From a virus: DNA of 64,000 bases. The translations under genes were made by a program, and so were the position numbers. Positions 7,176 through 43,451 of the stretch are shown piece by piece (positions within the stretch are counted from its first letter, which is position 1; every line of letters starts with the position of its first letter). The notes below the pieces were generated by a model. It saw only the letters and a program-made list of their open reading frames with translations, did no database searches and had not been told where the DNA came from. The stretch covers positions 62,001-126,000 of the IMG/VR virus record IMGVR_UViG_3300043449_002292; one strand, given 5' to 3'.

Positions 7176-7451
7176 TCAGCGCTTCTTGCGCTTTCCCTTA
7201 CCGAGACCGCCGAACGAACGCCTTGCAACGTTGGTGATATCACGACGTGGACCGGGAGGGCGCATGCCGAGCGGCAGCGTGTAACCAGCGACCGCACCAG
7301 CACCGGAGAACTCATCGAGCTCCGCCTCTTCCATGCTGCAGCTGTGCCCCTCACCTTCCTCATACATCACTCCGCACTCAGAGCAGCGACGCATGCCCTC
7401 AAGAGCTTCCATGATCATAAGGCGAAGAGATGAGCGATCTAGCGTGTCCAT
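7176..7451 (-). CDS. Small Cys/basic protein with leader-type N-terminus, function unknown
   Basis: This 91-residue protein is not recognised. Its N-terminus DRSSLRLMIMEALEG is an amphipathic helix resembling the LR-x-(I/M)(I/V) leader seen in three virion-block proteins (42608-42916, 42966-43451, 32415-33623), with an I-M-E tripeptide that could be a gp21-type cleavage site. Next comes a possible zinc-binding stretch (CSECGVMYEEGEGHSC, a CxxC then HxC). A Gly/Pro-rich middle and a strongly basic end (LGKGKRKKR) follow. A basic tail could bind nucleic acid. It sits between the HD-like gene and the SSB leader. A packaged, DNA-associated protein is one possibility, and only a hypothesis. Confidence 0.7.
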   Translation of the reverse strand: MDTLDRSSLRLMIMEALEGMRRCSECGVMYEEGEGHSCSMEEAELDEFSGAGAVAGYTLPLGMRPPGPRRDITNVARRSFGGLGKGKRKKR

Positions 7452-7459
7452 ACTCTTAA

Positions 7460-8044
7460 TTATTCAGTTCCGACCTTTCTGACAAGGATATCACGCGCAG
7501 AACGCAGGAGAATTGTGAGCGTCGGCTCGGCAGTAGGAGCAAGTCGACTCTCGACCCAATCAGGCGGGCGACTCGGTCCACGGATCGCCATGAACTCCTC
7601 CTCGGTGAGCTTCACGTCGTAGTGTTGAAGCAGGAAGAGCGAACGCTCGGGGATCGTCATCCGCGACATTCCCTCGTTCGGCTTGTAGAAAGCTCCGAGC
7701 TTCTCACGACGCCAGCCCTCCTCCTCAGGAACGAAGTAGGGCTCCTCGAGGTTGCCGACCTTACCGACCTCATGCAGGAGGCCGACGATGAGGATCGACT
7801 CCGTCGTTGCTCCCATCTCGAAGGTATCGTTGATTCGTTTCATACCCTTCGCAACAGTGATCGCCTGCTGGACGAGCCCACCCGGTTCGCAGCCGGGACT
7901 GTCGTTACGCGGCTCAGCCGGGCACATGAGAAGACGCTCACCGAGCTCATCCATCATGCGGGTGAGACCCTCACCGCGGTTGATCTTATCAACGAGCTTG
8001 GCGTAGCTCGTCCAGAGGTCAGTCAGCTCTCGTTCGTTCATCAT
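7460..8044 (-). CDS. HD-superfamily protein with degenerate metal site
   Basis: The 194-residue protein contains LLHEVGKVGNLE near residues 89-100, which aligns with the LxHDxGKxG core of HD-domain phosphohydrolases. The following segment, from the WRREKLG region to IPERSLFLLQHYDVKLT, matches a small HD protein family I know from T4-like phages. In that family the ligands are His in an N..PGGL-H context, then the His-Asp pair. Here the upstream His is replaced (PGGLVQQA) and the HD pair reads HE. It may therefore have lost hydrolase activity, or use a changed site. The substrate of the family is not established to my knowledge. It lies between the polymerase-linked small gene and the 91-residue protein. 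Confidence 0.75.
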   Translation of the reverse strand: MMNERELTDLWTSYAKLVDKINRGEGLTRMMDELGERLLMCPAEPRNDSPGCEPGGLVQQAITVAKGMKRINDTFEMGATTESILIVGLLHEVGKVGNLEEPYFVPEEEGWRREKLGAFYKPNEGMSRMTIPERSLFLLQHYDVKLTEEEFMAIRGPSRPPDWVESRLAPTAEPTLTILLRSARDILVRKVGTE

Positions 8045-8085
8045 GGGTTATTATTACATGACGCCGCGAGATTTGCAAACTTGAA

Positions 8086-8499
8086 TTAGCCCCAGTGAAT
8101 CCAGAGGCCGTTCGACAAGGCGTCGACCTTCAACCGTGTTGGAAGGGCGATCCTATCCGTCTTCTCAGCAGCCCATAACGTTGATTTGATCATTCTGATC
8201 GCGACAGCTGGGCTATAATCCATCAGATCCGATGAGACACTGATCGAGATGCCATTTCTAGACACGTATTTCTGCGGCTCTCCGAAGATTCCACGCAGCA
8301 CCTCTGACTTTGCTGCTATCCTGATTACGTCATAGATGTCCTGCAGCCAATCCTCTCCGCCGCCCATGAATCTCGATAGATCGAGTCCGTTGATTATCTG
8401 CTCGGGATCTCTCTCCACCAAGCCCAGATCGTTCCACCCAGGCGGAGCGTCACCGAACCCCTTGTACTTACCCTGCAGCTTGCGTCTGATCGCTGACAT
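8086..8499 (-). CDS. Hypothetical protein overlapping the polymerase gene
   Basis: A 137-residue soluble protein with no recognised motif. It has a basic N-terminus (MSAIRRKLQGKYKG) and a mixed alpha/beta composition ending in GLWIHWG. The start overlaps the end of the family A polymerase gene by 32 nt in another frame. The start is still well supported: a strong GAGGAGGAG lies 4 nt before the ATG, inside the polymerase coding sequence. The overlap suggests coupled translation, so a role with the polymerase is possible but not shown. Confidence 0.75.
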   Translation of the reverse strand: MSAIRRKLQGKYKGFGDAPPGWNDLGLVERDPEQIINGLDLSRFMGGGEDWLQDIYDVIRIAAKSEVLRGIFGEPQKYVSRNGISISVSSDLMDYSPAVAIRMIKSTLWAAEKTDRIALPTRLKVDALSNGLWIHWG

Positions 8500-9670
8500 G
8501 TTGCTCCTCCTCTATGTATGCAGGAGAGAGGGAAAGCTCAAAGTGACCCAGGCCCTCAACATCGAGGCCACGACGTGTGAGTGCCGCGAGTCGATCCACG
8601 CTTCCGGGATGTACGTCAACCAGCAGGGCATCGTGGAGAACATAGCAGGGGATGACGTCGAGATCCTCTGCCTCGATGCTCTCCAGCAGGTCGCCGAATC
8701 CACCGAGAGCGACATCCACCGCGGTCGACTGCGTGAAGTGTGAGATGAGCAGGTGCTGCTCGGTCGCCTCCGGGAGGGGGCGTCCCCAGTGACTCCTGAT
8801 CGCCCCCTCCCGCGCGAGCTCGGACGACAGGCGCCCCCGCAGGCCTGAGAGTCCAAAGTAATCCTCGATCTGCTTGATCACCCGCGTGTTAATGGACCCA
8901 AGCTCCTCTGTGATACCAGCGCGTGATGAGCCGTAAAGCATCTTCAACGTGGCAAGCTTCACCTGCCTGCGATTCGCAGCCCCTCCGAGCCTCTCTGCGA
9001 CATCAGAATAGATGTCAACAGGTGCAGACCCATTGGCGAGTAGACGTAGGACTCGGGGCTCGAGGGACACAAAATCGATCTGCGTCATCCGTCCACCATC
9101 GAATCGGCTCGCGAGGATCCTCCGGTGATCCTTCTGCAGCGTGAGAATTCGCGGGCCCTCCCTCACGGTAAGGCGACCCGTCGCCGTCGCATGGGAGTAG
9201 ATAGGTGGCTGGCACATGAAATCCGGACCTGGCTCGAAGCTGTCAAGCACGCTCGTCGATGATCGTCCCTGCTCGATGCGGAGGGAGGAAAGGTCAACCC
9301 GGCAGGGCTGCAGCTTCGAAAGAACCCGGCGGGAGCCTGCAAGACAATCCGCGTAATCGCCCAGTGCCTCAAGGGTGTCCAGGACCGTGCCCTCGATCCC
9401 TCGCAGGTGCTCACCGAGGATGCGCTGCGGGATCACGAGCGGCCATGGAATGGGACCGCGAGCGAGACCCTCCATCGAGAGACGATACTCTGCCGGAATG
9501 AAGTCCGGAACCTCATGCCCGATCGTTTCCATGAGCGCGCCCAGGGACCTTATCTGGGTGTGATCACCCAGGATCCACGACGAATCAGGGGCACGACCCC
9601 ACGAGACCTGCGCTTCATCGATAACAAGATCGCGAGCTGAGTTGAGCGCTCGACCTGAGATTGCAAGCAT
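8468..9670 (-). CDS. Family A DNA polymerase, polymerase domain only
   Basis: Template-directed DNA synthesis. The 400-residue chain retains the palm and fingers motifs of the DNA polymerase I family. A template-binding segment TATGRLTVREGPRILTLQK is at about 162-180. Motif A is TQIDFVSLEPRVLRLLA, with catalytic Asp 199. Motif B is RRQVKLATLKMLYGSS (Arg 234/235, Lys 238, Tyr-Gly 246-247). A QSTAVDVA segment precedes motif C, YVLHDALLVDV, with His 346 and Asp 347. Motif C has Ala where the family normally has Glu (HDE to HDA). The roughly 150-residue N-terminal part is too short for a 3'-5' exonuclease domain. No T4 gp43-type family B polymerase lies in this window, so this could be the replicase, perhaps with a separately encoded exonuclease. 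I recall such a split in Rhodothermus phage RM378. No clear Shine-Dalgarno precedes the ATG. Confidence 0.88.
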   Translation of the reverse strand: MLAISGRALNSARDLVIDEAQVSWGRAPDSSWILGDHTQIRSLGALMETIGHEVPDFIPAEYRLSMEGLARGPIPWPLVIPQRILGEHLRGIEGTVLDTLEALGDYADCLAGSRRVLSKLQPCRVDLSSLRIEQGRSSTSVLDSFEPGPDFMCQPPIYSHATATGRLTVREGPRILTLQKDHRRILASRFDGGRMTQIDFVSLEPRVLRLLANGSAPVDIYSDVAERLGGAANRRQVKLATLKMLYGSSRAGITEELGSINTRVIKQIEDYFGLSGLRGRLSSELAREGAIRSHWGRPLPEATEQHLLISHFTQSTAVDVALGGFGDLLESIEAEDLDVIPCYVLHDALLVDVHPGSVDRLAALTRRGLDVEGLGHFELSLSPAYIEEEQHVSDQTQAAG

Positions 9671-9700
9671 GCTGAATAGTAACCTGGGTCAGGATCAATT

Positions 9701-13216: not shown

Positions 13217-13510
13217 TTAGGTGGACCTCAGGGCTTCCGACAGGTCCGTCGGAATGAGAACGCGCGTGCCCGGTGGCACCTGCAACCACCAACCTATCTC
13301 GGAGGCTGCCGCGATCACCCACCAGTACTTACCGTCACCGTAATACTGCCCAGCGAGCTGATCGAGTCGCTGGCCCTCGGCGAGAGTGATCTCGCTGACC
13401 TGCAACCGACCTGCACGAACCGCATCGCGGAGCTTCAGGAACGAATTTGCCGTGGAGAGACGTTGCGGTGTTCCAACGATAATATCTTTCTGGTATCTGC
13501 TGACTGCCAT
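13217..13510 (-). CDS. LysM-domain baseplate protein (T4 gp53/P2 gpX type)
   Basis: This 97-residue protein contains a LysM-like fold. The segment ITLAEGQRLDQLAGQYYGDG is followed by KYWWVIAAASEIGWW and a PPGTRVLIPTDL strand. Small LysM proteins next to the hub are a standard part of contractile-tail baseplates, for example T4 gp53 and P2 gpX. There the LysM domain joins wedge or hub parts rather than acting as a lytic enzyme. It is placed between the 1035-residue tail protein and the hub-like gene, and its stop abuts the hub GTG. No catalytic residues are expected or seen. Confidence 0.8.
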   Translation of the reverse strand: MAVSRYQKDIIVGTPQRLSTANSFLKLRDAVRAGRLQVSEITLAEGQRLDQLAGQYYGDGKYWWVIAAASEIGWWLQVPPGTRVLIPTDLSEALRST

Positions 13511-13528
13511 CTCTGGTATCCTTGGGTA

Positions 13529-16879: not shown

Positions 16880-19800
16880 TCACTTCGGTTTCGGTGGGTT
16901 CCAAGTGTCGCCATCTTTGGTTTTGTTATATCCAATTGAGGTGTCATTCTCGAAGATGTCGTTGATTCCGTCGTTGTTCTGCATGAACTTCTTGAAATTG
17001 TCCGTCGCTGCGACGTAACCGCCCATGATCAGTGATTCGGAGATCTTCTGGGCGTTCATTGTCACGTTGAGCTGCACGTTGACATTCACGGTCCCTCCAG
17101 CCACGCTCAGGGAGGTCTTCGCGACCCTCATGTTCTTCTCAAGGCGATCGATCGTCGCGTCGAGTCGAACGGTCTCAAGGTCGGCGAGGATCTCATTGAT
17201 ATTCATGGTGTGACCGACGAGGGCTGTGAGCCGCTCCTCGAACTGCGTCATACGATCCTCGCTGAGACCTTTAACGACATCCTCGATGTTGTAAGCGAGA
17301 TCTGTGATGCCCTTGATAGCCTCGTTGAGGGGCTGGATCTCCTTCACGGCATCTTTCATATTCTTGATGTTGTTGATCATCTCGCTTGAGATTCCGAAAT
17401 CCGCGCCGAAGGACTGGCCCACCCAGAATCCGAACTGCCCGAGCAATGCGATGAATCCACCCGGCATATCAGCCAGGGTTTGGGCTGACGTCAGGGACGT
17501 CAGATTTGGGATAACGGTATTCACGTCGGTCAGACCTTCAAGCGAGGTGATGATCGTCTTCAGCGCGTCAATGGCCTTCGACATGTTCTGCACGGTGTCT
17601 TTCGTTTCATCGGTGATGGAGTTATCTTTGAATTTTTCATTAAACTGTGTTGCGAAGACGCCGAGCTGAGCCACCATGCCGGTTCCACCGGTAAGATCCA
17701 GCATTTTTTTATTGGCATCATCGACGTCTCCTATTCCGATCAACGTGGTGATCGTTGTTCCGATCGACGTGAGAGCAACGTTCAGACCCCCGATAGACTT
17801 TGCGGAATCACCTGCAACCCCATAGTTCAGGTAGTCTGCAAACCATCCGGAAAGGGCTAGGACCCTGCTCAGAAATCCCGTCGTCCCTTCCTCACCTGTC
17901 GTTCCGGTTAGGTCCTGCAACCTCCTCGTCGCTTCTTTGGTGTCACCCAGACCCGCCAGCGTCGTGATGATGGCGCCAATTCCCGTGACGGCCGCACCCA
18001 GCTTGCCGATCTGCTCGCCCTTGCCCGCGGCCGCGGAGGCGTCGCCCATCAAGTTGAGCTGGCCGATCAGGCCCATCCTCTTGCCGTCGCCCTTCAGGAG
18101 CGTGAAGGCGGTCGCGATGGCATCAAACATTCCCTCTGTATCGATCGTTCCGGCCCAGTCCTTCGGAATCGCAGCATCGATCGCTGAGACTGAGTTGATC
18201 ACGCCCTGCAATGTGGTCGCTATCTGCTGCAGGGATCCGATCTGGCTGGTCATCCCCGCGGCATACGTCAGATTCGTCTTGAACGTCTCATCGCTGAACG
18301 GTTCCACAAGCTGCTTGATCACGTCCCCGATACCCTCCAGGACGCTCGTCAGAACCCCTTTCGTGCCCTCGGCGACACCGAGCTTGCTGGCGACCCAGGT
18401 GGCAGCCGCAGCACCGACAAGTCCCATCGTGCCCATCTTCTCGTGCATCTTGCTGATGCCGAACATGGCACCCGCGACCGCGATGCCGAACACGGCAAGG
18501 ATACCTCCCAAGGCAAGGAGGTCCCCTATGCCGACATTCTCGAGTTTCTTCGCTGACTCAGCTATAAGGTCAACGAAGCTGTAGGTCTTATCAGGCAGCG
18601 GCTCCATGAGCGAGGCCATGAGCTCGGCGATGGCGCCTCCGATCGTCTTGATCGCCACGCCGACGGCAGCGGCCATCGTTGCGATCCTGAGCGGATCCTC
18701 TATGATATCGAAGAGCCTCTCCATCATGCCCTTACCGGTGGTAAGCGTGTCAGCTATCGGTGACTCGATCCCGCTCGAAAGACCTGAGGCGACATCTGCC
18801 GCGGCCCCCGAGGCAGCCCCGACAGCGCCCCCGGTGGATACCGCCTCCCCGACCGCATCGAATATCTTTCCAGTCTCCCCGAAGAACATGTTCGCGATCT
18901 CGGTGATCGTCGACATGATCGGACCACCCCCGACGAAGATTCCAGCGATCGCGGTTGCCCAGGGATACTGCTCGAACATCCTCATGATCGCGTCAATGAT
19001 TGCGCCACCGAGATCCGGCAGCTGATCCAGCAGCTTCGGAAGCGCGACCTTCAGGCGATCGACGGATTTTTTGAAGGCTGATTGGATCCCGCCCGTGACG
19101 CCTGATTCTCCATCATCCGTGAACATCTTCGTCAGGTTGTCGATCCACCTTGGGATGCTATCGACGAGCCACTCAACGCCGCCGACAAGAACGTCAAGCA
19201 TGAACTGTCCGAACCTCGCGGCCATATCCATGAAGCTAAAGTTTCCAACCCCCTCTGTGAAAGCTTTGGAAATGGATGTGAAGACGCCACCGAGGAGCTC
19301 CTTAACGCCCCCGACCACATCGCCCTCCTTCACCTTGGTTATGAAACTCTCAACGCTTGTTGCGATCTCCTCGAACATCGTGCCGATCTTGGTGAACAGC
19401 CCAAGAAATGCTTGACCATCATCATTCTTGAACAGGACCGCCGAGAATATCCTACCCACCCTCTGACCGATTACAGCCACGTCAATCATCTTCTTAGCAA
19501 GGTCCCCGATAGTTTTTAGGACACCTTTTGAGCCAAAGAACCCCCGACCGAATCCCTCGAAGAATGCTGACATGAAACCCGTGAATTCCTTAAACGGCGT
19601 GATGACGTTCTCAATGTTGTCCGCAAGATCCTTGAATGTCTCCTCGGTCGACTTCTGCTTCTTGTTCGCCGCGTCAGCGCCCGCGACGATCTCATCGTAG
19701 GACATCGCCAGACCCTGTGAGGAGAACGCAAGACTCACCTGCTTCTCGGTGAGACCCGCAGTGTCAGCGAGCAGCTTGCGATCCACGCGTGACATCTCGT

Positions 19801-26070: not shown

Positions 26071-29000
26071 TTATACGAACTCAACACCCGCGGGGGTGAT
26101 GATAAAGTCGACAGCGATGAACTCAACCGCGCGGGTTGGGACCACGATAATCCTACCGTTGAGCCTGCTGGCCTCTACGTCAGCCTGGGTGTTGTTGGTA
26201 TCATCGCAGATGATCCTGAACTGCTCAACTCCCGCCTGTGCCTTCACAAGGGAAAGCAGCGGGGTCGCACGATCGACGAATGTCTTCCTTGTCGTTGCAT
26301 CGTTGGGCTCGAAGAGAAGACCACGCGCGACGCCGAGAATGATCCTCTTGAGCTCCAGGAAGAGACGACGGACATTGACGCGATCGAAAGCTGACTTCGA
26401 GAGCTGCAGGGTCTTCTGTCCGAAGATGACGAACCCGCTACCCGGGAAGGTTGCGATCGGGTTGATCGAATTCTCGTAGAGGTAATCACGATCAGCTGCC
26501 GAGAGTCGAACCTCAACGTTGCCTACGAAATCGAGAGCAGCGCGGTTGAAGCCTGCGGGAGCATACCACGGGTAGGAGACCCTGTCACCGTATCCGATCG
26601 CTCCGAGCGCCGCCACCGATGCGGGCACCTTGACCTTACGGTTCGTCGTCGTATCATTCACAAAGACGTCCGGGAAGTAAGTCGCGACGTAGTTGCTGTT
26701 GATCGCGCGGGCGGTGAGAGCATCCGTCGTCTTCGTCACATTGGGCTTCGTTCCTGAATCCTCAAAGATTCGAACGTTCGCATCAGTGTAGGACGGCATG
26801 TCGAGGACATACATTCCAAGAGCGTAGCTTGGAAGTCGACGGGTGATGTAATCGGTAATCAGCGGCTCCTTGATTCCCGGCGTAGCGATCACGTTGACGT
26901 TGACCGTCAGCTTGTCTGTCATGAGCTTCGAGGCGACACGATATGAATTGATCGCGTTGTTGCTGAGGTTGTCACCCGCAGGATCGTATCCCAGACCCGA
27001 TCGAGCAAGCGGTTCGGATCCACCGACAGCCAGACCGCCCGTATCCGTCGACGTTGCGCGATCACCGAGGCGAGCCGCTGCAGCGTCGAGGACGTTGAGA
27101 CCGTCGAATCCACCGTAGAAGATCGTGGAGAACTTCGCATACTCGGAGAATTTGTTGAATGTGTTGACGGAGCCCGACAGAAGCGAGGCGAAAGTAAGCC
27201 TGCTCAGGGAGCTGTCGGTGATCCTATAGTCCACAGCATCCGGAACCCCGTTACGTATGTAAGCAGCCTCCTTCATGTGGGCCTCGATGGTTCCCGTTAC
27301 ATCGGAGAGCGTCTGATTGGAAAGGGCGACACGTGCCAGCGTGAACTTGTTGGCGTTGAAAGCATCAGCATCCGAGCCGGTCAGCAGCGCGTCGAGCTTC
27401 TGAATCCCCTGGAACTTTGAGTAAGCGAGAACCAGAGGGTTGAAGGCGTAACCAGCGTTCGCGTCCATGACCGAGTTCTCAATTTTACCCGAGACGGTTC
27501 CGGACGGGACGAGCTTCTCAAACTTCACACCCCAGTGCAGGCGGGAGTCTGGGATCTCGAGGATTCCCGGCGACCCGATGTATGATGAGCCGTCAACAGT
27601 TCCCCTCGTTGCCTTGAAGCGGAACGGAAGCGGTGGGACAATAGAGCCGGTCAGGCCCGTTGCGATCGAGCTGCTGCAGGCGAGGCGTGGTAGCACCCCT
27701 CCGCCAGAGCCGTAGGTCCTCGTTCCGATGATGAGGGCGCTCTGCGTATCCGTAAGGGTCTGGGTCGTGCGAACGACAGGAACACCGCGGAAACCGAAGG
27801 GCAGGGCGTTCGTTGGAACCGCGCCGGAATCAAGCTGGCTGGAAATCCGCACTCGAATTCGACGGCTCGCGTTCGGGAACTTACCGCTGATCAGCAGCCT
27901 CTGCTCCGACTCATCCGCAGCATCGAAGTTGAAGGTTACCTTACGATCTCCGATCTTCTTGGCAACGTAGTTCGTGCTGTTCGGATTGAGATCGCAGCCA
28001 GTGAAGCTCTCGAGAACCTTCGTCGATGTGTCGGTGTCGAAGAGATCACGAACCAGGACGTCGAACGTTCCGTATGGGTTCTTCGGATCCGTGGAGGCCT
28101 TCATGTTGACGATCGAGATCTTGAAGAGATCGTTGCCTGAGGAACCATCCGTGAGGGTCTCGAAGTGGAAGAGGTCATACTCAAAACCACCATACGGCTG
28201 CGAGATGATCGCTGGGGTCCGCGGGGTCGTGTAGCGGGTATCGTAACGTCCGAACTTCTGCAGGAAGAGGTCGTTTGAGCCTGAGGCGATCGCGATGCAG
28301 CTGTCACCGGTCGTATCGATGGGAGCAAGCTCGTCCTCAACCGGAAAATCGACGTAGAGCAGGTGCTGCTCGTCCTGGAACTTGCGGGGGTCCGTGTTGA
28401 GAACCTTTCCGAAGTAGTCCGTAGCGTTGGGGTCGAAGGACGCGGTCAGTATCCTGACGCCAGAGACCGAATCGGTCGTTCCGAACGTGGCACCCTGTGA
28501 TGAGGAGATTACGAACTTGAACTTCTTGTATGTTGTGGAGTTTGAATCGAGATCCGTCGAGGCGATGTCATCGAAAGCTGCTCCCGTCCCGCTCCACTGC
28601 GATGCCGCCCCGGTCATGTCAAGGACCATACCGCGGGCGCCGGTTGGGAAGAACAGCATACCACGAACGACGTTTATCGTGTCGTTCGAGGTTGGGTTGA
28701 AGCTCGGGTTATCGCTGAAAACCGGGAATCCACGCCACTCGGAGGGAGTTGACGTATCGGATGGCAGCTTGTGACGAGCAACGAGGAACTGCACCGCGCC
28801 AGTCTTACGAAGGTCGGTTGGGGGCTGGGCGACTGTTGAGCCGAGGACCTTGAAACCAGCGTTACGAACGGTTCCCTGTCCAGCTGTCGTGGAGAAATCA
28901 GAGGTGGTGGCATTCGCACCCGCGCCGAGGACGCGGATGAATGTGAGGGCACCCTTGTTCTTCAGCCACTCGTTCGCGGCGTAAGAGGCTGGACGATCCG

Positions 29001-32414: not shown

Positions 32415-33623
32415 TCAGACGAAGGAGGAAATCAGCATCCGACGACCACCACGATTCATACTGTCCATCAGGTGATGGGCTGCCGAGAACTGATACATCT
32501 CAACGGCGAGCTTACGCATCTCGCTCTCATACAGGGCGGCCCTTCGAGCACGTATCCTGGACTCCGACATCGTCTTCGCACCTGCTGGCGCAGCAGGACG
32601 AATCGCAGCTGCCGCCCCAGCGGTCGCTGCCGACGCTTTAGCAAGGCCACGGGAGGCTGCGTCCAGGGCGTTCGCGATCATGGTGCGAACAGCATTAGCG
32701 GCTTTACCTGCAAGACCGATAAGAAAATCTATGAAGGATATGAAAGCCATTCCCGTCATGATAGCGCCCACACCGACCGCAGTCAAGAGAGTTTCCACTG
32801 CAGCCACAGCACTTTTGAGCGTGTTCTTTATGAAGTTTAGAACCTCCTGAAGACCTGCTTTCATGGCACTTTGAACGTTGGTTACAAAGTTTGCCCATGC
32901 CGTGCCCATGGCGTCCTTAAAAATTTTCAGGTTGCAGTCTGTCGCAAACTTCTGTTTCGCCCGAAGCTGATCATTTATCAATGTGCTAAGAGCAGAGAAC
33001 GTTCCTGCGAGGGCCTCAATCGCTCCCTCGGACAATCCTGCGGTGAACGCGGCGCCCGCCATGCGAGCGGCAGTCTGGAGAGCGCCCGTGAGTCCACCCT
33101 GTCCGCCAGCCGTGCGTAAACTGCTCGCCATCTTGGAGAAGGTGCTGGCAGTCGCTTCCTGTATTCTCTCGGTTGCGATCAGCTCTGCTGTCACAGCTCC
33201 CACCCTTCCTGCCAGTCCGACCGCGGCGAGGGCGTCGGGTAGACTCTTCACAAAAACTTCGATTCTACAGGCGTCGTCCACACCTGGACGGCCCGGGACG
33301 TCAGGGCTCGGAGGGGCACCGCCACCGCCAGCCGCAGCGGGCTTATTCTTCAGCTGGGCAGCGACAGCCATGATGGCCGTGGCAGCCTTCGATCCGGCGG
33401 CAACGGGCTTCAGCGGCTGACCTAGCTTCGCTGTCTGAACCGCGTTGGTGCTGATATCGGCGCTGTAGCTGTAGGTGGCATCCTGCCACGTGACCACGTT
33501 ACCGGCGACCTTCACATTCTTTGCCTCCGCAGCTTGAGCAGCAGTGGAAGCCTGCTCCATGAGGTATGATCTCCTCATCTCCTGGTTGACGATGGCACGA
33601 AGCTGTGACTCAGTTATCCTCAT
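32415..33623 (-). CDS. Ala-rich protein with capsid-targeting-like leader, probable internal virion protein
   Basis: This 402-residue protein is not a known family. The first 25 residues (ITESQLRAIVNQEMRRSYLM) form an amphipathic leader shared in style with three other phage proteins, followed by L-M-E, a candidate gp21 protease site. The rest is alanine-rich and helical. Hydrophobic stretches (for example VGAIMTGMAFISFIDFLIGL around residues 290-310) could insert into membrane. A proline-rich linker lies near residue 105. Located between the nucleotidyltransferase module and the neck block. A protein packaged with the DNA and delivered into the host or its membrane would explain both leader and hydrophobic helices; this is a hypothesis. 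Confidence 0.75.
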   Translation of the reverse strand: MRITESQLRAIVNQEMRRSYLMEQASTAAQAAEAKNVKVAGNVVTWQDATYSYSADISTNAVQTAKLGQPLKPVAAGSKAATAIMAVAAQLKNKPAAAGGGGAPPSPDVPGRPGVDDACRIEVFVKSLPDALAAVGLAGRVGAVTAELIATERIQEATASTFSKMASSLRTAGGQGGLTGALQTAARMAGAAFTAGLSEGAIEALAGTFSALSTLINDQLRAKQKFATDCNLKIFKDAMGTAWANFVTNVQSAMKAGLQEVLNFIKNTLKSAVAAVETLLTAVGVGAIMTGMAFISFIDFLIGLAGKAANAVRTMIANALDAASRGLAKASAATAGAAAAIRPAAPAGAKTMSESRIRARRAALYESEMRKLAVEMYQFSAAHHLMDSMNRGGRRMLISSFV

Positions 33624-33639: not shown

Positions 33640-35412
33640 TTATCTATCTACGAGAATATGCTCAAGCAGCGATTTTAGCAGGATTCTCCTGCCATCTTGG
33701 ATATCACCGCGTTCCCCTTTAACTATTCCCCAGTACATGTTTTTCATCTCCTGGTTCAGGTTTTTTGGAACGTAGCTATCGAATGATGACTTATCACCAG
33801 CCGCGATGAATCCACGCATCATGGTTCCTGAGATCTGCGTGGTTTCCGACCTTGGAACTGCGACCTGCTGGAACTTCTCCAGCACGGCAGGATCTTTGAT
33901 CGTGCTCCTCATCTTGGCAGGGGAGTACTTGACTTTCGCATCCTCAACATCGGAGTAGAAGATGAAGCGACTGACGATGCCCTTCAGGTCTCGCATCTTG
34001 TTCACCGCAATATCGAGCGGTGACTCCTGGCTGATGATGAGCGTCGCGTTTGGAAAGTCCTTGTGAAACTGTGGCTCCAGCACCGACTTCCAGGCATCGA
34101 TCATGACACCGGCTGGCAGCTCATCCCTTCCTGCGATCGATGTGATGATGAGAGCCTCGTCGCACTCACTCGCGACCCGACCGATCATCTTCCAGTGACC
34201 GTCATGAACCGGTTTACCCGCGAGGACGAAGATACCGACAGTGATCCCATTCCTGTCACCGATCTCGACTCGCTTCATGATCCTCGTCTTCGTTGTCAGG
34301 AACAGGTCCTCCTGCCGCTGTATCAGCTCCTTCTTCCGGTGGAAGAGACGACCCAGCCTGTTCGAGATCGCCGCATCGAAGTAGCACTCGTTATGGATCC
34401 GCTCCAGCAAATCGTTCATCTCGGACTCCTTGATGTTACGATTCTGGGCTGGAGCAAACTCAGCGACAATCTCATCCGCGATGGTGATGATCGAACTCCA
34501 GTAGGCCTGCTCGATCGGAGGCGTTTCCCGGAACTTATCTTTCACAGCTCCGCGGGTGGTCTCATCATGTTGGTCGGGGTTTAGGGCCTTGTAAAGAGCC
34601 CTCGTGGTCGATGTCCTCATCACGACGCCCTCGGCTGGGGACAGATCCGTCTCCGTCGAGAGAGAGGTCTTGAACTCCGAGAACACCTTGTAGATCACAT
34701 CGATGATACGAAGGGGACGATCCGGTGAGCGATCGTTGTATGCATCGTTGAGTGAGCTGAACACTTCATTGAAACGACGCTCGATCGCCTTGTTCCTGAT
34801 GCCCGCCCTGAAATCATTGATGCTGGAGAGCTTCCCGTCGAACATCACTGGATACGTTTTCACCCCTAGCAGCCGAGCGTATCGCTCCAGCATGTCATCA
34901 TCATCGACAGGTGTCATGTTGCTGACGAGATGGGTTCCAGTGAGCTTGTAGTGGCATGGTCCGAAGAGCGTCAGGAAGATCCCATGCTTCTGGGGGTAAT
35001 CACGGGTGATTGTCGCCTTGCGTTGCACGAACTCGAGGAAGAACTCGGTTCCCTGTGGAATCTCCGCGGTCTGATGATGCATCCGCTCAAGCAGGGAATG
35101 AACGAGAGCATACTGCGCCGTTCCCGCCGAGTGCGCTCGGATCTCCTCCTCACGCTTTCCGAGTCCACGAATCTCACTTGGAAAGATCAGGTTACCCCTG
35201 TAGGCAACGTGCCAGTTCTTCGCGTAATCGTTCGGATCGAACTCGTTGTTGCGACGGATGAGGGTAAGCTTCGTTCCGTCGATCTTCTCAACTATCCTGA
35301 CGTTATCATCGAGAAACTGCCTTGCCTTGCGACGATCATTCTCACGCTCGCGTGGGGTAGCATCATCGCGGATCATGACCTTCCTAAGGTCCTTGATGGA
35401 GATGTCGGCCAT
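33640..35412 (-). CDS. RNA-ligase-like nucleotidyltransferase fused to NMNAT-type adenylyltransferase
   Basis: A 590-residue two-domain enzyme. Residues 1-300 carry ligase-superfamily motifs. Motif I is EKIDGTKL with nucleophile Lys 43. The motif III region is FFLEFVQ through KHGIFLTLF (125-150), motif IV is AEGVVMR (260-266), and motif V is LYKALN with Lys 275. Residues 388-560 form an HxGH-type nucleotidyltransferase. HDGH at 403-406 follows FVLAGKPV, and ISGTMMR at 527-533 is followed by AAGDKSSFDSYVP, as in NMN or related adenylyltransferases. A helical linker separates them. Both domains keep their catalytic residues, so the protein could both make and use adenylylated intermediates. Likely themes are RNA or tRNA repair and NAD metabolism; the substrate is unknown. 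It lies 4 nt after a Pol-beta-fold NTase gene. A good GGAGAT precedes the next gene. Confidence 0.85.
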   Translation of the reverse strand: MADISIKDLRKVMIRDDATPRERENDRRKARQFLDDNVRIVEKIDGTKLTLIRRNNEFDPNDYAKNWHVAYRGNLIFPSEIRGLGKREEEIRAHSAGTAQYALVHSLLERMHHQTAEIPQGTEFFLEFVQRKATITRDYPQKHGIFLTLFGPCHYKLTGTHLVSNMTPVDDDDMLERYARLLGVKTYPVMFDGKLSSINDFRAGIRNKAIERRFNEVFSSLNDAYNDRSPDRPLRIIDVIYKVFSEFKTSLSTETDLSPAEGVVMRTSTTRALYKALNPDQHDETTRGAVKDKFRETPPIEQAYWSSIITIADEIVAEFAPAQNRNIKESEMNDLLERIHNECYFDAAISNRLGRLFHRKKELIQRQEDLFLTTKTRIMKRVEIGDRNGITVGIFVLAGKPVHDGHWKMIGRVASECDEALIITSIAGRDELPAGVMIDAWKSVLEPQFHKDFPNATLIISQESPLDIAVNKMRDLKGIVSRFIFYSDVEDAKVKYSPAKMRSTIKDPAVLEKFQQVAVPRSETTQISGTMMRGFIAAGDKSSFDSYVPKNLNQEMKNMYWGIVKGERGDIQDGRRILLKSLLEHILVDR

Positions 35413-37028: not shown

Positions 37029-37051
37029 TTGTATCTCTGAGCCGAGCTGTA

Positions 37052-37522: not shown

Positions 37523-37590
37523 TTTGAAAATCTCCTTTATTTGGACCTAACGCCGTCGATCGACGACACATTCTAAATATACTTCGAAAA

Positions 37591-37620
37591 CTAAAATGGC
37601 CACCTCTTTCGAGGTGGCCA
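37591..37620 (-). terminator. Rho-independent terminator after the major capsid gene
   Basis: A perfect 10-bp stem TGGCCACCTC/GAGGTGGCCA with a GAAA tetraloop (minus strand) spans 37597-37620 and is followed by TTTTAGTTTT. It lies about 28 nt after the capsid protein stop. The outer half of the stem, TGGCCAC, is the same as in the terminator after the tail tube gene. Confidence 0.88.
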
Positions 37621-37647
37621 CCCTAGTTCACCCTATCGGCTAGAACA

Positions 37648-39567
37648 TCAGATGATGTTCATGTCGAGGCAGGTGACCGTTCCGTAGAAGTCGGAGCGGA
37701 CCATCTTCTTGCCGTAGCGGGTCATGACACCCTTACGCGGCGTGAAGTCCTCGGGAGCGAAGATCGTCGGGGTGACGATGAGCGGGACGTAAGGAGCGTA
37801 GACGTAGCCAGTCTCCAGGTAGCTGCCGCCCTTGAAGCCGACGAGAATCTTGTTCCTGGGGAAGTAAGGATCCTTGTAGACCGTGAAGCGGTTGCTGAGG
37901 GTGCCGACCTTCTCCGCGCCGATCGAGAACGGGGCGCCGACCTGACCGGAACCGTCGATGCTGTAGCTCGGGCGGTAGTAGGTCGAGGCCTCGAGGATCG
38001 TCGCGACGTCCGGGCCGACAACGATGAAGTTGGCGGAGCCGCGGAGGGTCTTGCGGTGGATCTCGTTACCGACGTCGATGATCGTCTCGGTGAGGGTCTC
38101 ATACCACTCACGGACCGTGCCGGTGAAGTTCGGGCCCGGAGCGGTGGTGGAGGCGCGGCTGATCTCAGCGCCGGTGGTCTTGTTGACGAACCTGCCCGGG
38201 GCGCGTGACCAGAAGTAGTTCGCACCCGACGCCTGCGTGAGCAGGTCGTTCAGGATCTCACGATCGAGCTCGAGGGCGATCTGCTCGGAGAGGATCTGGG
38301 TGAGCTCAACCTCAGCGTCGATGCTGTGGTAAGCGTTCAGGTCCTGCGCGAGCTCCGGAGACCAGCGAGCGCGGAGCTTGCGGGTCGTCGCGGTGACGGC
38401 GATGGACTCGATCTTGATGTCGATCTCGGGGATGACCGGGGAGGGGGTCGTGCCGAAGTTCGACTCGAAGACCGGGATGGTCACGGTGGAGCCAGTGGTG
38501 CTCTCAACGTCGAGCGCCGAGTTCAGCGGGTAGCTGATCTTGAGCGAGCTCGCGTAGCCACCATCGGTGTCGAGCTTCGGAAGAAGGTTCGAGGCCGAGA
38601 TGACGCAGAGCATGTGGGTTCCGGACAGCGGGGTCGCGGTGAACACCTTCGAGCTGTTGTTCCAAGTTCCAACCTGGTTGAGACGACGGATGTTGAGGAC
38701 GCTGTTACCACCCTGGAAGGTCTCGCCCGGGATCAGGAGACCCGGGACGGTGCCAGTCGTGAAGATCGCGAAGTCCTTAACGAGCGACTGGTCGGAACCA
38801 GTGAGCTGTCCGAGATCGACAACGAGGAACTTGAAGAAGGCATCGCCGTCGGCAAGACCAGCGGGCTTCGGTGAGCTCTCGATGAGGCTGGTGACCTGCG
38901 GATCGAATCCGAGGAGGCGACCATCGGTTCCTGTGGCGTGGAGGTTCGCACGGGCCGTGAAGGCACCGGCGCCGCTGTAACCACCGGAGGCAACGATCTG
39001 AGCGGCGTTCAGCACGAAGTCGGCGTGAACGCGGCTGTAACCGGCGCCGGCGAGATCATACATACCACCGGTCGCAAGAGAGCCGCTCTGGACGCCCTTA
39101 CCAACAGGGTTGTTGTAGATCGACTGACCGACGGTGTAGGTCGACTTGGTGGAAGCCGTTCCAGCTCCGTCAACGCCAGCATCACCACCGCGGTTGGTGC
39201 CGTAGGTGTAATCCAGGTAGAAGAGGAGACCGGAGGGGAGGCTCATCGGCTGGATCGAGACGAGCTCGTTCGCCACGAGGCCGCCGAAGACGCGGCGGAC
39301 GATGGGGAACGCGATGTTCGAGAAGCCGCGGATGTCGCTGCCGCCTGAGGAGAGAGAGCCACCGCCGCTGGAGAGAGCGTTGCTCTCGCGGAGGAGGTTG
39401 GCGGTCTGGTTCTCGAGGAGGCGAGCCATGTTCTCGCGATTGACTCCATCGAGGCCACGAAGCAGGCCGGTGCGGCCCCACTTCTCGACGAGGCGGCTGT
39501 TCTCCGCCCCGACGTCACGCCCGCGGATGCCTTCCGAGAGCTGCTCTAGTGTAAAAGACTTAGACAT
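37648..39567 (-). CDS. Major capsid protein, T4 gp23-like
   Basis: Forms the head shell. The 639-residue protein has the gp23-family landmarks. An N-terminal leader contains LVEKWGRTGLLRGLDGVNRE and MARLLENQ, followed by DIRGFSNIAFPIVRRVFGGL and NELVSIQPMSLPSGLLFYLD. The C-terminal core contains ELAQDLNAYHSIDAEVEL. Its N-terminal 60-70 residues are probably removed by the prohead protease, as in T4, where cleavage follows an (I/L)-x-E tripeptide; LVE occurs before KWG. It is about 120 residues longer than T4 gp23, with a Gly/Ser/Thr-rich insertion after residue 130. It follows the scaffold gene, the same order as T4 22-23, and ends at a strong terminator. Confidence 0.95.
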   Translation of the reverse strand: MSKSFTLEQLSEGIRGRDVGAENSRLVEKWGRTGLLRGLDGVNRENMARLLENQTANLLRESNALSSGGGSLSSGGSDIRGFSNIAFPIVRRVFGGLVANELVSIQPMSLPSGLLFYLDYTYGTNRGGDAGVDGAGTASTKSTYTVGQSIYNNPVGKGVQSGSLATGGMYDLAGAGYSRVHADFVLNAAQIVASGGYSGAGAFTARANLHATGTDGRLLGFDPQVTSLIESSPKPAGLADGDAFFKFLVVDLGQLTGSDQSLVKDFAIFTTGTVPGLLIPGETFQGGNSVLNIRRLNQVGTWNNSSKVFTATPLSGTHMLCVISASNLLPKLDTDGGYASSLKISYPLNSALDVESTTGSTVTIPVFESNFGTTPSPVIPEIDIKIESIAVTATTRKLRARWSPELAQDLNAYHSIDAEVELTQILSEQIALELDREILNDLLTQASGANYFWSRAPGRFVNKTTGAEISRASTTAPGPNFTGTVREWYETLTETIIDVGNEIHRKTLRGSANFIVVGPDVATILEASTYYRPSYSIDGSGQVGAPFSIGAEKVGTLSNRFTVYKDPYFPRNKILVGFKGGSYLETGYVYAPYVPLIVTPTIFAPEDFTPRKGVMTRYGKKMVRSDFYGTVTCLDMNII

Positions 39568-39623
39568 TTTGTTTACTCCAATTTGGAAAATTTGTTAGAA
39601 AAACCGATTAAACCAACGGGCAA

Positions 39624-41405
39624 TCACTTACCCGACTTGATACCTGCGAGGATTGCCCAGCGATCCACCTCGACGGATTCATTCAGGCTAGCAGCGGGGC
39701 TAGCTGACCGCGTCGATCTGGAGGACGAACCAAGGATCCGACCCTCAGTCATCGTGCCTGACTTCGACTTGAGGGACTCAGTCAGGCTGGTGTAGAGAAG
39801 CTTCGCCTCCCGCACCGACTTCGCAGCATCGAGCGACTCAACGATCGCCCTCTGCTGACGTGGGGTGAGGTCCCGGTTCTGCATCAGCTTATTGACATAG
39901 AGAAGCTTCGCATTGAACAGGTTGACCTCCTCGAGCTGCTCGCGTAGTGTGGAAACAGCGCGCTCAGACTCAGCGAGCTTAGCCTTGAGAGCACGATTCG
40001 TGCGTGCCTCCTCGACCCTGGCCTCTCGCTCTTCCTTCGCGGCGTCGGTTGCCTTCTTGGCAACTTCGAGCGCCTTGCGGGCGGTCTTCTCGGCCTCACC
40101 GAGCTGATTCAGCTCGTCGGGAAGGCCTTCGACGGAACCACCACCAAAATTACCGGGCATCGCGTCCTTGATGCCCTTCGCGTTCTTGCCCTTGGAGCTC
40201 TTCGCCTCACGAAGGCGACGGAGCTCACGGCGGAGCATGGACTCATCGACGTGGAAGACGTTCTCGTTCTGCTCGGCAGCATCGACATCAGCGATCTCCT
40301 CGAGCTCATCCTCATCCTCGTCGTACATCTCTTCGAGATCGGTGTCGTCATCCTCCTCGAGCTCGTCGTACTCCTCCTCGAGGTCGTCATCATACTCGTC
40401 CATGTCGTACTCCTCAAGGTCGTCATCATACTCGTCCATGTCGTACTCTGACGGAGCGGGCGGCTCCGGAGCGGGTTCAGGAGCTGCAGGAGCACCAGCA
40501 CCGGTGTCAGCAACGTCAACTGGCATCTCTTCGCCAGCAGCAGCGGCATCCTCCTCACCGAGATCAACGCTGAAGCTCATCGCCTTCAGCTTCTCCTTCA
40601 CCGTATCATCGAGACCCTCGAGATCCATGGGCTCGAAAACAAGCTTCGCCTCACGACGAAGACCACGATTGGATCTTCCCTCCATTTCCTCCAGGAGGCG
40701 ACGGAACCTCGCGTTTGTTGACATATGCTTCATCTCCTTAACTATGTTGTTGAACTTTTGCCTGGTCTCAGGACTACCACCATTAGATATCACCTGATCC
40801 CTGAAATCATGCATGTTTTTCAGCAGAATTGAATAGGCTGCGCGGAAGTTTGATCCCTCCGTCAGCGGTAACGTTCTCGAGACTCTCTTGAGAGCCTCAA
40901 ACTGACGACGAATCTGGCCGATCGATACCCTGTCACGACGACGCTCACCGAGTATCATGTCGGCAAGAGCTCCGAGGCTCTCCTTGTTGAGAGACACCTC
41001 AACGTCGTCACCTTCAGCAGCGTCAGCTTCCGTGGAGGCCGATGCCTCGCCGTGCTTGTCAACGCGAACGTTGATCTTCACCTCGGTTCCTGAGGCGGTC
41101 TTCGTTGTGACAGTGTGCGTGACCTCCTCGTCGGGATCAGGAGCCGGTGCGCCAGCAGACGTGTCCATACCCGTCATAGGTGCAGCTGACGTTGCATCCA
41201 TCGTTCCGTCGTCTGGTAGCGGCTCAAGATCGAGGTTCGGAGCTTCCTCACCGGTCTCCTCGTCCTGTTCAGCAAGCATCTGGCGTTCGACCATCCGACG
41301 GATCTGCGGTGAGATCGACTCAATGATCTTATTTCTCGCGTTTCTCTCAGCCATCTCCTTCAGAGCTTTGGCATCAGAAATCGCTTCGTCATACAGGTTC
41401 GGCAT
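39624..41405 (-). CDS. Prohead core/scaffold protein, T4 gp22-like position
   Basis: A 593-residue, highly charged helical protein located directly before the capsid gene, as T4 gp22 is. The N-terminal part is polar. A very acidic region near residues 320-385 contains the tandem repeat EYDMDEYDDDLE. The C-terminal half is a long heptad-rich coiled coil (ESERAVSTLREQLEEVNLFN) typical of scaffolds. T4 gp22 is shorter (269 residues). An internal in-frame ATG at 40724, with AAGGAG 9 nt upstream, could give a second product of 366 residues. The scaffold role is inferred from composition and gene order rather than sequence identity. Confidence 0.75.
   Translation of the reverse strand: MPNLYDEAISDAKALKEMAERNARNKIIESISPQIRRMVERQMLAEQDEETGEEAPNLDLEPLPDDGTMDATSAAPMTGMDTSAGAPAPDPDEEVTHTVTTKTASGTEVKINVRVDKHGEASASTEADAAEGDDVEVSLNKESLGALADMILGERRRDRVSIGQIRRQFEALKRVSRTLPLTEGSNFRAAYSILLKNMHDFRDQVISNGGSPETRQKFNNIVKEMKHMSTNARFRRLLEEMEGRSNRGLRREAKLVFEPMDLEGLDDTVKEKLKAMSFSVDLGEEDAAAAGEEMPVDVADTGAGAPAAPEPAPEPPAPSEYDMDEYDDDLEEYDMDEYDDDLEEEYDELEEDDDTDLEEMYDEDEDELEEIADVDAAEQNENVFHVDESMLRRELRRLREAKSSKGKNAKGIKDAMPGNFGGGSVEGLPDELNQLGEAEKTARKALEVAKKATDAAKEEREARVEEARTNRALKAKLAESERAVSTLREQLEEVNLFNAKLLYVNKLMQNRDLTPRQQRAIVESLDAAKSVREAKLLYTSLTESLKSKSGTMTEGRILGSSSRSTRSASPAASLNESVEVDRWAILAGIKSGK
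40382..40448 (-). repeat. 36-bp tandem repeat coding for an acidic protein repeat
   Basis: Two nearly exact copies of a 36-bp unit (second copy about 31 bp long) lie in frame in the scaffold gene and encode EYDMDEYDDDLE twice. A related, shorter piece lies on the other side. In-frame repeats like this can expand or contract without breaking the gene. Confidence 0.85.
40739..40745 (-). promoter_or_regulatory. ATAGTTA motif inside the scaffold gene
   Basis: The minus strand reads AACATAGTTAAGGAGATG within the coding sequence, followed by the internal ATG at 40724. The motif, the Shine-Dalgarno and the ATG together look like a copy of an intergenic start region, supporting an internal start. 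Confidence 0.3.
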
Positions 41406-41425
41406 GTTGTATCCCTACGCTCAAT

Positions 41426-41432
41426 TAACTAT
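41426..41432 (-). promoter_or_regulatory. ATAGTTA motif upstream of the scaffold gene
   Basis: The minus strand reads GATATAGTTAATTG 8 nt after the preceding stop. It contains TATAGT, a passable -10 box, but no -35 at the usual spacing. It is one of the recurrent copies before structural genes. Confidence 0.35.
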
Positions 41433-41439
41433 ATCGTTC

Positions 41440-42021
41440 TCAGTCTTTTTCGAGGTCCTGCTGCAAATGAATTGCTCTGATCAGCCGACGAAGTCTTGAC
41501 ATCGTGAGCTCATCAGGACCAGGTATCTCCTCGAGAGTGTATGCCGGCTCCATCGAACCTGCATCTCGCAGGGGCAATGAGCTGGAGTATCCTGCTTTCG
41601 ATCCGGCAAGAGATATTCTAGCCGGGGCAGGACGGATCGAGGGTCCATCAGCTCCAACTCCGAGGACCCCCTGCTTGTTCTTATAGAGGTCTGGGATTGG
41701 TGACATTCCACGACCCGTCGTCTGCTCATGCATCCAGAAATCAGCTCCGACGAATCGACGGTTATCCGCAGCACGATCAGCATACGAGTCCCAGCGAATG
41801 TGACCCTGTCCCGCCTTATTACCTATCGCGACCTGCTGTAGGAGATCGTCCTCATCCTCTAGCTCGTCCTCGTCATCTACATCGCAGGCAGGCTCTTCAA
41901 TGTAAGGCCATGATGATTGACCCATACGTGGTAAATCACGACGCCCGTCCGTGCCGTATCCCAGGCCGGTGCGGGCGTCGTAGTTTGGATTGTTAGCTTC
42001 TCTGATCCGTCGACGTGACAT
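41440..42021 (-). CDS. Hypothetical head-block protein
   Basis: A 193-residue, mostly disordered-looking protein. It has a basic start (MSRRRIREANNPNYDARTG), an acidic stretch (CDVDDEDELEDEDDLLQQ), then WDSYADRAADNRRFVGADFW and a helical end (TMSRLRRLIRAIHLQQDLEK). It lies among core and scaffold genes. It could be a core or minor capsid protein; there is no recognised family. Confidence 0.65.
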   Translation of the reverse strand: MSRRRIREANNPNYDARTGLGYGTDGRRDLPRMGQSSWPYIEEPACDVDDEDELEDEDDLLQQVAIGNKAGQGHIRWDSYADRAADNRRFVGADFWMHEQTTGRGMSPIPDLYKNKQGVLGVGADGPSIRPAPARISLAGSKAGYSSSLPLRDAGSMEPAYTLEEIPGPDELTMSRLRRLIRAIHLQQDLEKD

Positions 42022-42026
42022 GATGA

Positions 42027-42572
42027 TTACGTCGTGGGATCGCCGTCAGCGCCTGGGTTGGTGGCCCACGCCTCGCTCTGCCCCAGCGTTCCGATCGGTC
42101 CTGAGACGTCGATCGTTGTGGTCGCGATCTGAGCCGCTGTTGCACTCGGCGTGACTGTATCGACCGTGCCCCCCGTTCCGAAGTTATCGTTCGCGGCGAC
42201 TGCAGTTCCACCAGCAGCAACGACAGAAGACCCCTCACCACCGGTAGGGTCGCTGTTGACAATGAGGTTCGGGTAGTAGGGAGAGTCGATCGCAACGCCG
42301 TTGATATCAGTGATAGAGCTAACATCAGGTGCGCCTGTGTAATCCATATCGACGGACGGAAACTGCACAGCATCACCCTCCTGCACGGCGGGCTGAAGCA
42401 GATCCCGAGCAGTGGTGAGATAATCACTGGCTAACGTCGTGTAGATCGGGGAGTTCGGAAACATCGCATTCAGAGTCATAGTATCAGAGTTTGATAGTCC
42501 GACCGTACCGCCCGCAGTCAAGGTCGTGCGGGCGGTAATCGGCGAGTTGATTGTTGGATACTTTCCTGGCAT
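42027..42572 (-). CDS. Hypothetical virion-type protein, Thr/Gly/Ala-rich
   Basis: A 181-residue protein with low charge and many Thr, Ser, Gly and Asp residues (MTLNAMFPNSPIYTTLASDY, then GGTAVAANDNFGTGGTV). It is consistent with a beta-rich virion part. It stands between two head-core genes and is preceded by a copy of the ATAGTTA motif. No family is recognised. Confidence 0.65.
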   Translation of the reverse strand: MPGKYPTINSPITARTTLTAGGTVGLSNSDTMTLNAMFPNSPIYTTLASDYLTTARDLLQPAVQEGDAVQFPSVDMDYTGAPDVSSITDINGVAIDSPYYPNLIVNSDPTGGEGSSVVAAGGTAVAANDNFGTGGTVDTVTPSATAAQIATTTIDVSGPIGTLGQSEAWATNPGADGDPTT

Positions 42573-42593
42573 GATATTCCCCTCTTTGCTCTC

Positions 42594-42600
42594 TAACTAT
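42594..42600 (-). promoter_or_regulatory. ATAGTTA motif upstream of the 181-residue head-block gene
   Basis: The minus strand reads ACAATAGTTAGAG 8 nt after the stop of the 102-residue gene, then AGAGGGG as Shine-Dalgarno. Confidence 0.35.
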
Positions 42601-42607
42601 TGTCCTA

Positions 42608-42916
42608 CTAAATTTCCTCGAGGATATCAGCGCGGAGCTCCTGACGAGCCTCGTTAACCTCGGACAGACGACGTGCAAGCTCGACTGCCTCGCGCTGCAG
42701 GTTCTCGTAGTGCTTCACCTTCTTGGCCAGCGTGCCAGCAAGCTCGGAGGGCTGCACCTCACGGGTCTTCTTGACCGCGTCCTTCATGTCCTTGGGCATG
42801 TCCGTGGAGGTAGACTTCGCCTTCTTTCCCTTCTTCTTCTCCTTCATAACCCTGGACTTCTCCTCCATGATGATTCTGCGGAGAATGCTGGGTGTGAGAT
42901 TCACGATTCTTGACAT
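42608..42916 (-). CDS. Small basic/acidic coiled-coil protein with leader motif, prohead core candidate
   Basis: A 102-residue protein. The leader LTPSILRRIIMEEKSRVM resembles those of three other proteins and contains I-M-E. It is followed by a lysine-rich segment (KEKKKGKKAKS) and a C-terminal coiled coil (KKVKHYENLQREAVELARRL). Size and composition resemble the small core proteins of T4 heads (gp67/gp68), which are cleaved by gp21. The position between the protease and scaffold genes supports a core role. Confidence 0.7.
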   Translation of the reverse strand: MSRIVNLTPSILRRIIMEEKSRVMKEKKKGKKAKSTSTDMPKDMKDAVKKTREVQPSELAGTLAKKVKHYENLQREAVELARRLSEVNEARQELRADILEEI

Positions 42917-42965
42917 CTTCGTAGCTCCTATAAGGCTCAGATGTTAATTATCCCTAACAAACAGT

Positions 42966-43451
42966 CTACATCGACTTTTTTGAAGGAGCAAACGCAAGAT
43001 CAGCCCAACTCGACGCTCCATCGAAAAGTGACATTGGATCAACGTCAGCCACGGGAGACATTGAATCAGCACGAACAGCCATCGCAGCGCCTGGGGAACG
43101 TTCAGCCTGCATCTGGCTGGGTAGTGTATTCCTCGCGGTGTCCTCGAATATCTGCTGCATCACACCCTGCTGCTCACGGGGAAACTCAGCCGCCAGGTTC
43201 GCAATAGCTGGCATCGGCGCGCGGCGACCTTGCGCCTGCTCAGCTATCTTGGAAGCTCCAGCCGAGAATGTGACGCTGTCCAGATGCTTTTTCCCGACAG
43301 GTAAAGGAGAGGGTGCCCGTTCAGGCCTACGTGCCGGTGTTTCCCTGCTAGAACGTGAGCTCTCGTTGATAGTTGGTTTCAAACCCTCTATCATGACCTC
43401 AAGGATACACTCCTTGATTATGTCCTTCAGCTCTGATCTCGAAAGCGCCAT
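42966..43451 (-). CDS. Head-block protein with capsid-targeting-like leader
   Basis: A 161-residue protein. The leader LSRSELKDIIKECILEVMIE has two (I/L/M)-x-E sites. After it the protein is Pro/Ser/Arg-rich and likely disordered (RRPERAPSPLPVGKK), with short helices later. It lies 2 nt downstream of the prohead protease gene. A core or internal protein processed by that protease is the best guess. Confidence 0.7.
   Translation of the reverse strand: MALSRSELKDIIKECILEVMIEGLKPTINESSRSSRETPARRPERAPSPLPVGKKHLDSVTFSAGASKIAEQAQGRRAPMPAIANLAAEFPREQQGVMQQIFEDTARNTLPSQMQAERSPGAAMAVRADSMSPVADVDPMSLFDGASSWADLAFAPSKKSM

Follow-up and report, generated by a model that had tools for sequence, protein, structure and literature searches.

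A shared N-terminal leader on unrelated proteins of T4-like phages is a candidate cleavable capsid-targeting propeptide

Introduction

The internal proteins of phage T4 are the best-described case of proteins addressed to the inside of a phage head. They are highly diverse, and their capsid-targeting sequence (CTS) alone is conserved, according to the part of PMC3012670 used here. According to sections of two further papers, the CTS attaches these proteins to the core and gp21 trims them (PMC5694885, PMC9958956), and in the relevant section of PMC9958956 the T4 shell protein gp24 is likewise stated to lose 10 residues. For the giant Salmonella phage SPN3US, the portion of PMC5694885 that deals with its head describes two paralogues with identical first 15 residues. 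The capsid-targeting literature among open-licence PMC papers concerns T4, SPN3US, P1 and other phages, and we found there no published account of the leader described below.

Here we compare with these systems a leader found in a 142,859-base virus record. The window, that is, the whole stretch of DNA analysed, comprises 64,000 nucleotides and corresponds to positions 62001-126000 of that record. An earlier note on the window had proposed that four of its proteins begin with the same short helix, that a gp21-type protease removes it after (L/I)xE, and that one of the four is encoded far away in the replication region.

Results

The coordinates of the four ORFs in the earlier note are correct, and all four lie on the minus strand, which it had not given. 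For scoring we took 52 leaders, 51 of other phages and one of the same record, made a profile of the leader core from them and ran it over the 167 ORFs of the entire record; the null consisted of 1024 windows taken from the interior of these proteins (maximum score 6.5). The 102-aa, 402-aa and 161-aa proteins (Table 1) rank third, sixth and seventh among the 167 ORFs, each with a score reached by 0 of the 1024 null windows, while the fourth, a 91-aa protein, scores 1.3. The proposal therefore stands for three of the four proteins and fails for the last. The bodies of the three true leader proteins are unrelated to one another, as had been said. The consensus of the leader reads M-K-I-T-K-S-Q-L-K-Q-I-I-K-E-E-x-x-x-(L/V)-L-x-E.

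Table 1 Features of the window and further leader genes of its record. Positions are those of the window unless marked as record positions.
Feature	Position	Strand	Evidence
91-aa protein, replication module, tested and rejected as a leader protein	7176..7451	minus	leader-core score 1.3
402-aa protein, leader MRITESQLRAIVNQEMRRSYLME, long hydrophobic Ala-rich segments	32415..33623	minus	leader-core score 12.7
Leader of the 402-aa protein, residues 1-23, predicted cut after LME (between E23 and Q24)	33555..33623	minus	sequence
Major capsid protein, gp23-like, with propeptide	37648..39567	minus	PF07068 E 1.3e-75
Predicted maturation site of the major capsid protein, LLRE (residues 58-61) followed by S	39385..39396	minus	aligned capsid proteins
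Putative scaffold, between protease region and capsid gene	39624..41405	minus	position and synteny
193-aa head-module protein, leader-like C-terminal helix TMSRLRRLIRAI	41440..42021	minus	
102-aa small protein, next head-module gene, leader form LTPSILRRIIMEE	42608..42916	minus	leader-core score 20.4
Leader of the 102-aa protein, residues 1-26, possible cut after VMKE	42839..42916	minus	sequence
161-aa small head-module protein, directly downstream of the protease gene, starts with leader MALSRSELKDIIKECILEVMIE	42966..43451	minus	
Leader of the 161-aa protein, residues 1-22, predicted cut after E22 (MIE followed by G)	43386..43451	minus	leader-core score 12.3
gp21-type prohead protease (S77), predicted processing enzyme	43453..44067	minus	PF03420 E 1.9e-26; phrog_207 head maturation protease E 9.7e-51
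Portal protein, gp20-like	44889..46802	minus	PF07230 E 3.5e-77
Further leader gene	record 16916-17266	minus	leader-core score
Further leader gene	record 28287-28799	minus	leader-core score
Further leader gene	record 34424-35311	minus	leader-core score
Further leader gene	record 47388-47999	minus	leader-core score
Further leader gene	record 48637-48951	minus	E 5.2e-11 with the 22-column profile, but itself part of that profile

Across the record, 8 of the 167 ORFs score at least 10, against 0.00 expected, and the leader is thus more frequent than chance. The whole-record search, which the earlier note had suggested, yields at least five further leader genes outside the window. One of the eight ORFs, at record positions 5646-5852, looks spurious because it has no LxE. 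A 22-column leader profile, with which whole records were searched and matches counted at E <= 1, gives five matches in the window's own record.

Homologues of the 102-aa protein with the same N-terminus occupy the same place in 5 of 20 head modules; the leader site, MxE in the window copy, is poorly conserved among relatives. The gene for the 402-aa protein lies immediately ahead of the neck-region genes, and its product has a weak tape-measure PHROG match (E 0.005), no match in a Pfam scan and no relatives found in viral_contigs.

The 91-aa protein was rejected as a leader protein. It ranks 14th (p ~0.02 per ORF), at a level where 3 to 6 of the 167 ORFs are expected by chance, and its membership is not supported because its homologues (15 rows including the window copy) have a median score of -3.6, below the 95% shuffle level of -0.4. 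Of the 35 relatives found, the surroundings were checked at 13 loci, and at all 13 the homologue neighbours the SSB gene and RecA comes next. The gene is a replication-module gene, a syntenic neighbour of SSB and RecA whose orthologues do not carry the leader profile, and the idea of a leader protein encoded in the replication region is not borne out. The conserved part of the family is the element DEFSGAGAVAGYTLPLG. In general form, DEFSGAGAVAG(Y/F)(T/S)LPLG, this element ends or comes after an acidic stretch (window copy and L286-L320), and the proteins that contain it, 81 to 439 aa long, are encoded at the same gene place, flanked by a gene of the 194-aa type on one side and by SSB on the other.

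We then consider the leader in other viruses. A degenerate DNA pattern for M-x-I-T-x-S-x-L-x-x-I-I-x-E-E matched at least 119 stretches in IMG/VR, whereas a control pattern with the same codons permuted had 0 matches. Among the matches listed, 118 scanned loci contain 238 leader ORFs. All 22 leader records longer than 102 kb, the window's own among them, carry between 2 and 32 matches to the 22-column profile (E <= 1), and 21 are present in LR756508.1. A Flavobacterium phage isolate has one match (E 8e-4) and the isolate Microcystis phage Mel-JY01 a single weak one (E 0.04); T4, P-SSM2, S-PM2, HTVC008M and RM378 have 0 at E <= 1. Random viral records showed the profile in 1 of 23, weakly (E 0.064); the 23 are contigs of at least 17 kb out of 44 loci, and this control is thin for large records because only 3 of the 23 exceed 100 kb. 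When records were picked by similarity of the capsid protein and not by the leader, 11 of 28 had a leader match at E <= 0.05.

Searches with consensus peptides for isolates that combine virion proteomics with the leader returned only LR756508.1 or nothing. A clade-2 query from L272, representing the family beside the protease and not the window copy, gave no isolate match, and a literature search found no proteomics for the Flavobacterium phage. The leader pattern also matched 8 stretches in 4 bacterial MAGs (L152-L159), with leader and S77 on one contig in two of them, on different contigs in one, and S77 not found in one. We read the leader contigs of these MAGs as phage genomes binned with bacteria.

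The presence of a gp21-type protease in the window was confirmed. The PF03420 match of 93.2 bits exceeds the cut-off of 27 and the gene lies in the head module, both in agreement with membership of S77. PF03420 occurs in 22 of 22 leader records above 102 kb, in 1 of 5 of 98-100 kb and in 19 of 48 of 16-82 kb, and in 1 of the 23 random viral records (0 of 20 below 100 kb). The N-terminus of the protease, MSDRSLMLLTE, contains LLxE, and a comparable [LIV]LxE near the start is found in 32 of 37 S77 proteins (37 found among 38 loci). This putative self-site lends weak support because its P1' residue, aromatic in 31 of 32, is unlike that of the leader and capsid sites. In a set of 39 protease loci, two (L246 and L254) failed a signature filter.

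Around the protease we fetched 20 head modules, of which L273 ends within the scaffold gene; for L274 the stretch used stops short of the portal. The gene order is portal, a 278-aa protein, protease, small leader protein and, further on, scaffold and capsid, with extra genes in some modules. A homologue of the 161-aa protein lies downstream of the protease in all 20 aligned rows (the window and 19 of the 20 modules, L274 being left out). Residues K13, C15, E18 and E22 are invariant in these 20 sequences, and hhalign matches the family to columns 1-21 of the leader profile (E 1.5e-5). In the AlphaFold2 model a confident helix spans residues 5-23, ending at the predicted site, and is followed by low confidence.

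Leader-like helices also appear elsewhere than at N-termini. The C-terminal helix of the 193-aa protein has a core score of 10.1 in the window and in L280, 4.8 in L277 and -0.4 in L283, the 95% shuffle level being 1.2. Overall there are 31 internal matches versus 294 genes with an N-terminal helix; some of the 31 begin at Met and may be true starts. The scaffold was rejected as a source of the leader helix (hhalign E 0.12, probability 0.5%, scores near shuffle).

Several observations were made alongside. The single ORF L051:4014-4709 contains two leaders, one N-terminal and the other about 90 residues on, as though two cargo units were joined. A basic small protein resembling ribosomal protein S21 was seen by eye near the protease inside the head module of L266-L276 and L278, and also occurs as L007:22183-22410; in Microcystis phage Mel-JY01 the S21-like protein is annotated RpsU. 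A tandem pair of major capsid protein genes is present in one head module in L284 and L285, and in L266, L270 and L273 very long ORFs (865 to 1572 aa) separate the protease region from the scaffold gene.

To characterize the predicted cutting site we used the 197 leader ORFs with unrelated bodies that were left after removal of 41 of the 238 as redundant or too short. LxE was not part of the DNA search pattern. Among the matches listed, 139 of the 197 proteins have an (L/I)xE starting at most ten residues past the leader core, compared with 10-13% in later windows of these proteins and with a mean of 50.7 of 197 in the shuffle control (sd 5.5, maximum 67). The distance from leader to LxE is nearly constant, with somewhat varied spacing; most favoured is L/V/I-L-x-E, directly past which the 197 proteins show no more position-specific conservation. 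In a larger set of 602 ORFs (407 non-redundant, 373 with a recognised core), [LIM]xE is present in 246 of the 373 leader proteins and absent within 11 residues of the core in 127. In the Flavobacterium phage, the one protein with a leader lacks an LxE beyond it.

We compared these sites with the propeptide of the major capsid protein, in which L59 and E61 are invariant among 19 aligned capsid proteins. The capsid site [LVIM]L[RK]E was found at 89 of 101 loci tried; its 79 unique sites all have R or K at P2, and 69 of them have A, S or Q at P1'. Leader sites have P4 (mostly L/V/I), P3 (mostly L) and P1 in common with the capsid site and lean towards the same P1' (A, G, Q and S), although this likeness is partial and their P2 is varied. 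Their mean fit to the capsid-site model is -0.65 log2 odds versus -1.55 for internal LxE of the same proteins, a fit reached by 0 of 5000 control samples.

Leader proteins range from about 76 to 265 aa (5-95%). A domain scan of the 110 longest of the 407 found only 20 Pfam families, with one or two members each, among them YkuD transpeptidase, leucine-rich repeats, EF-hand, DUF5824, DUF6321, TseH-like and ParBc_2. PHROG matches of the bodies are chiefly to families of unknown function, and a defence-protein library gave one methyltransferase match among the 110. The leaders are basic, with a median net charge of +3 over 15 residues, while the bodies are mostly acidic. Their hydrophobic moment is 0.37 versus 0.24 in later windows, and only 24% of leaders lie above their own 95% level.

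Finally, identical leader residues within one locus are encoded by different codons in 40% of 8803 comparisons, not all of them independent as some loci overlap. The same-codon rate is 0.60 versus 0.42 expected, an excess which indicates that some copies have recent common DNA ancestry. Common descent and selection acting on the peptide are both compatible with this codon pattern.

Discussion

The comparative evidence strongly supports the proposal of the earlier note that the leader targets proteins to the capsid and is cut by a gp21-type protease after (L/I)xE: the spacing of LxE, the likeness to the capsid site, the co-occurrence with S77 and the leader on the gene beside the protease all point in this direction. 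On these sequence comparisons we regard the leader as a probable cleavable capsid-targeting propeptide, which S77 would remove and by means of which the prohead would be loaded with a large, variable set of cargo proteins.

As an amphipathic helix with a positive charge, the roughly 22-residue leader would dock the cargo protein on the inside of the growing prohead, at the core or the inner shell. Once activated, the S77 protease would cut after (L/V)-L-x-E, as in the major capsid propeptide; the trimmed body would remain in the head with the DNA and would probably be injected on infection. We infer docking, cleavage, packaging and injection, the first three from the behaviour described for T4 internal proteins.

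Several points count against reading the leader as a propeptide: about a third of the leader proteins in the larger set (127 of 373) have no clear site, nor does the one in the Flavobacterium phage, P1' is only partly capsid-like, P2 is unrestricted, and the scaffold is unlike the leader. Nor does this reading predict the internal and C-terminal leader-like helices, because the signal would be N-terminal and cleavable. These helices, together with the proteins that have no clear site, would suit a different role: the helix would serve as a tag that docks its protein to a different phage or host complex, for example a polymerase, the membrane or some other compartment, while LxE would be incidental or the target of a different protease. 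The S77 protease in all 22 large leader records, the leader on the gene beside the protease and the resemblance of leader sites to the capsid propeptide speak against such a tag, which we hold to be unlikely.

Considerably less likely still is a common origin of all leader proteins as paralogues of a single family that have diverged so far that only their start is recognisable, with no targeting module. Leader copies often lie close together and the raised same-codon rate would fit this; yet their lengths vary widely, they carry unrelated domains (YkuD, LRR, EF-hand, DUF5824) whose matches already suggest differing folds of the bodies, and conservation ends at LxE. The same codon excess could reflect a 5' cassette acting at the DNA level, such as a translation start region, spread by exchange and encoding a peptide without a role, but this is very improbable given the different codons behind 40% of the identical residues and the retention of LxE at somewhat varied spacing. 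Chance resemblance holds for the 91-aa protein alone and has practically no likelihood as a general account, being refuted for the other three proteins by the number of high-scoring ORFs in the record, and opposed by the viral matches that the permuted pattern failed to give.

Returning to the cleavable propeptide, a broader picture may be drawn, which we put forward tentatively and consider slightly more likely wrong than right. A single leader would, across a large group of T4-like phages that are mostly uncultured, load into the head a fast-changing arsenal of up to ~30 different proteins per genome, injected with the DNA as first-strike effectors; the arsenal would include double-leader polyproteins split by the head protease, as well as head proteins with a C-terminal helix.

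Most leader bodies belong to no known family. Should the leader prove to be a packaging signal, sequence alone would suffice to predict that many uncharacterised proteins of abundant aquatic phages are packaged in the virion and probably injected. Many viral proteins of unknown function would then be assigned a first role, and a rule would be available for spotting early effectors and anti-defence proteins. The leader would also be a second, independent capsid-targeting system for comparison with T4, and possibly a peptide with which to load cargo into other phage heads.

Among known systems, the CTS of T4 IPI, IPII, IPIII and Alt, as described in the parts of the literature cited above, is the closest. 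Like the CTS, the present leader is a conserved N-terminal peptide on otherwise unrelated, variable proteins, it ends in (L/I)xE, and an S77 protease of the gp21 type is encoded in the same genome. The two differ in length, ~10 residues in T4 (MKTYQEFIAE in IPII and IPIII) against ~22 here, and in sequence, no similarity being evident from the profile search of T4. They also differ in number, since three IPs and Alt are the T4 proteins named in those parts, against 2 to 32 matches per leader record, and unlike the CTS the leader is also found on a conserved gene beside the protease. The propeptide of T4 gp24 (MAKINELLRE, cut before S) is similarly short, N-terminal and ends in LLRE, but it belongs to a single-copy vertex shell protein and is shorter than the leader. 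Head proteins of SPN3US, too, have N-terminal propeptides cut by the prohead protease, although in the portion of PMC5694885 used here several of these exceed 100 residues, the cleavage motif is another one (such as AxE) and eight processed proteins are reported. The leader would act like the T4 CTS, although the comparisons made here gave no sign of sequence homology between the two.
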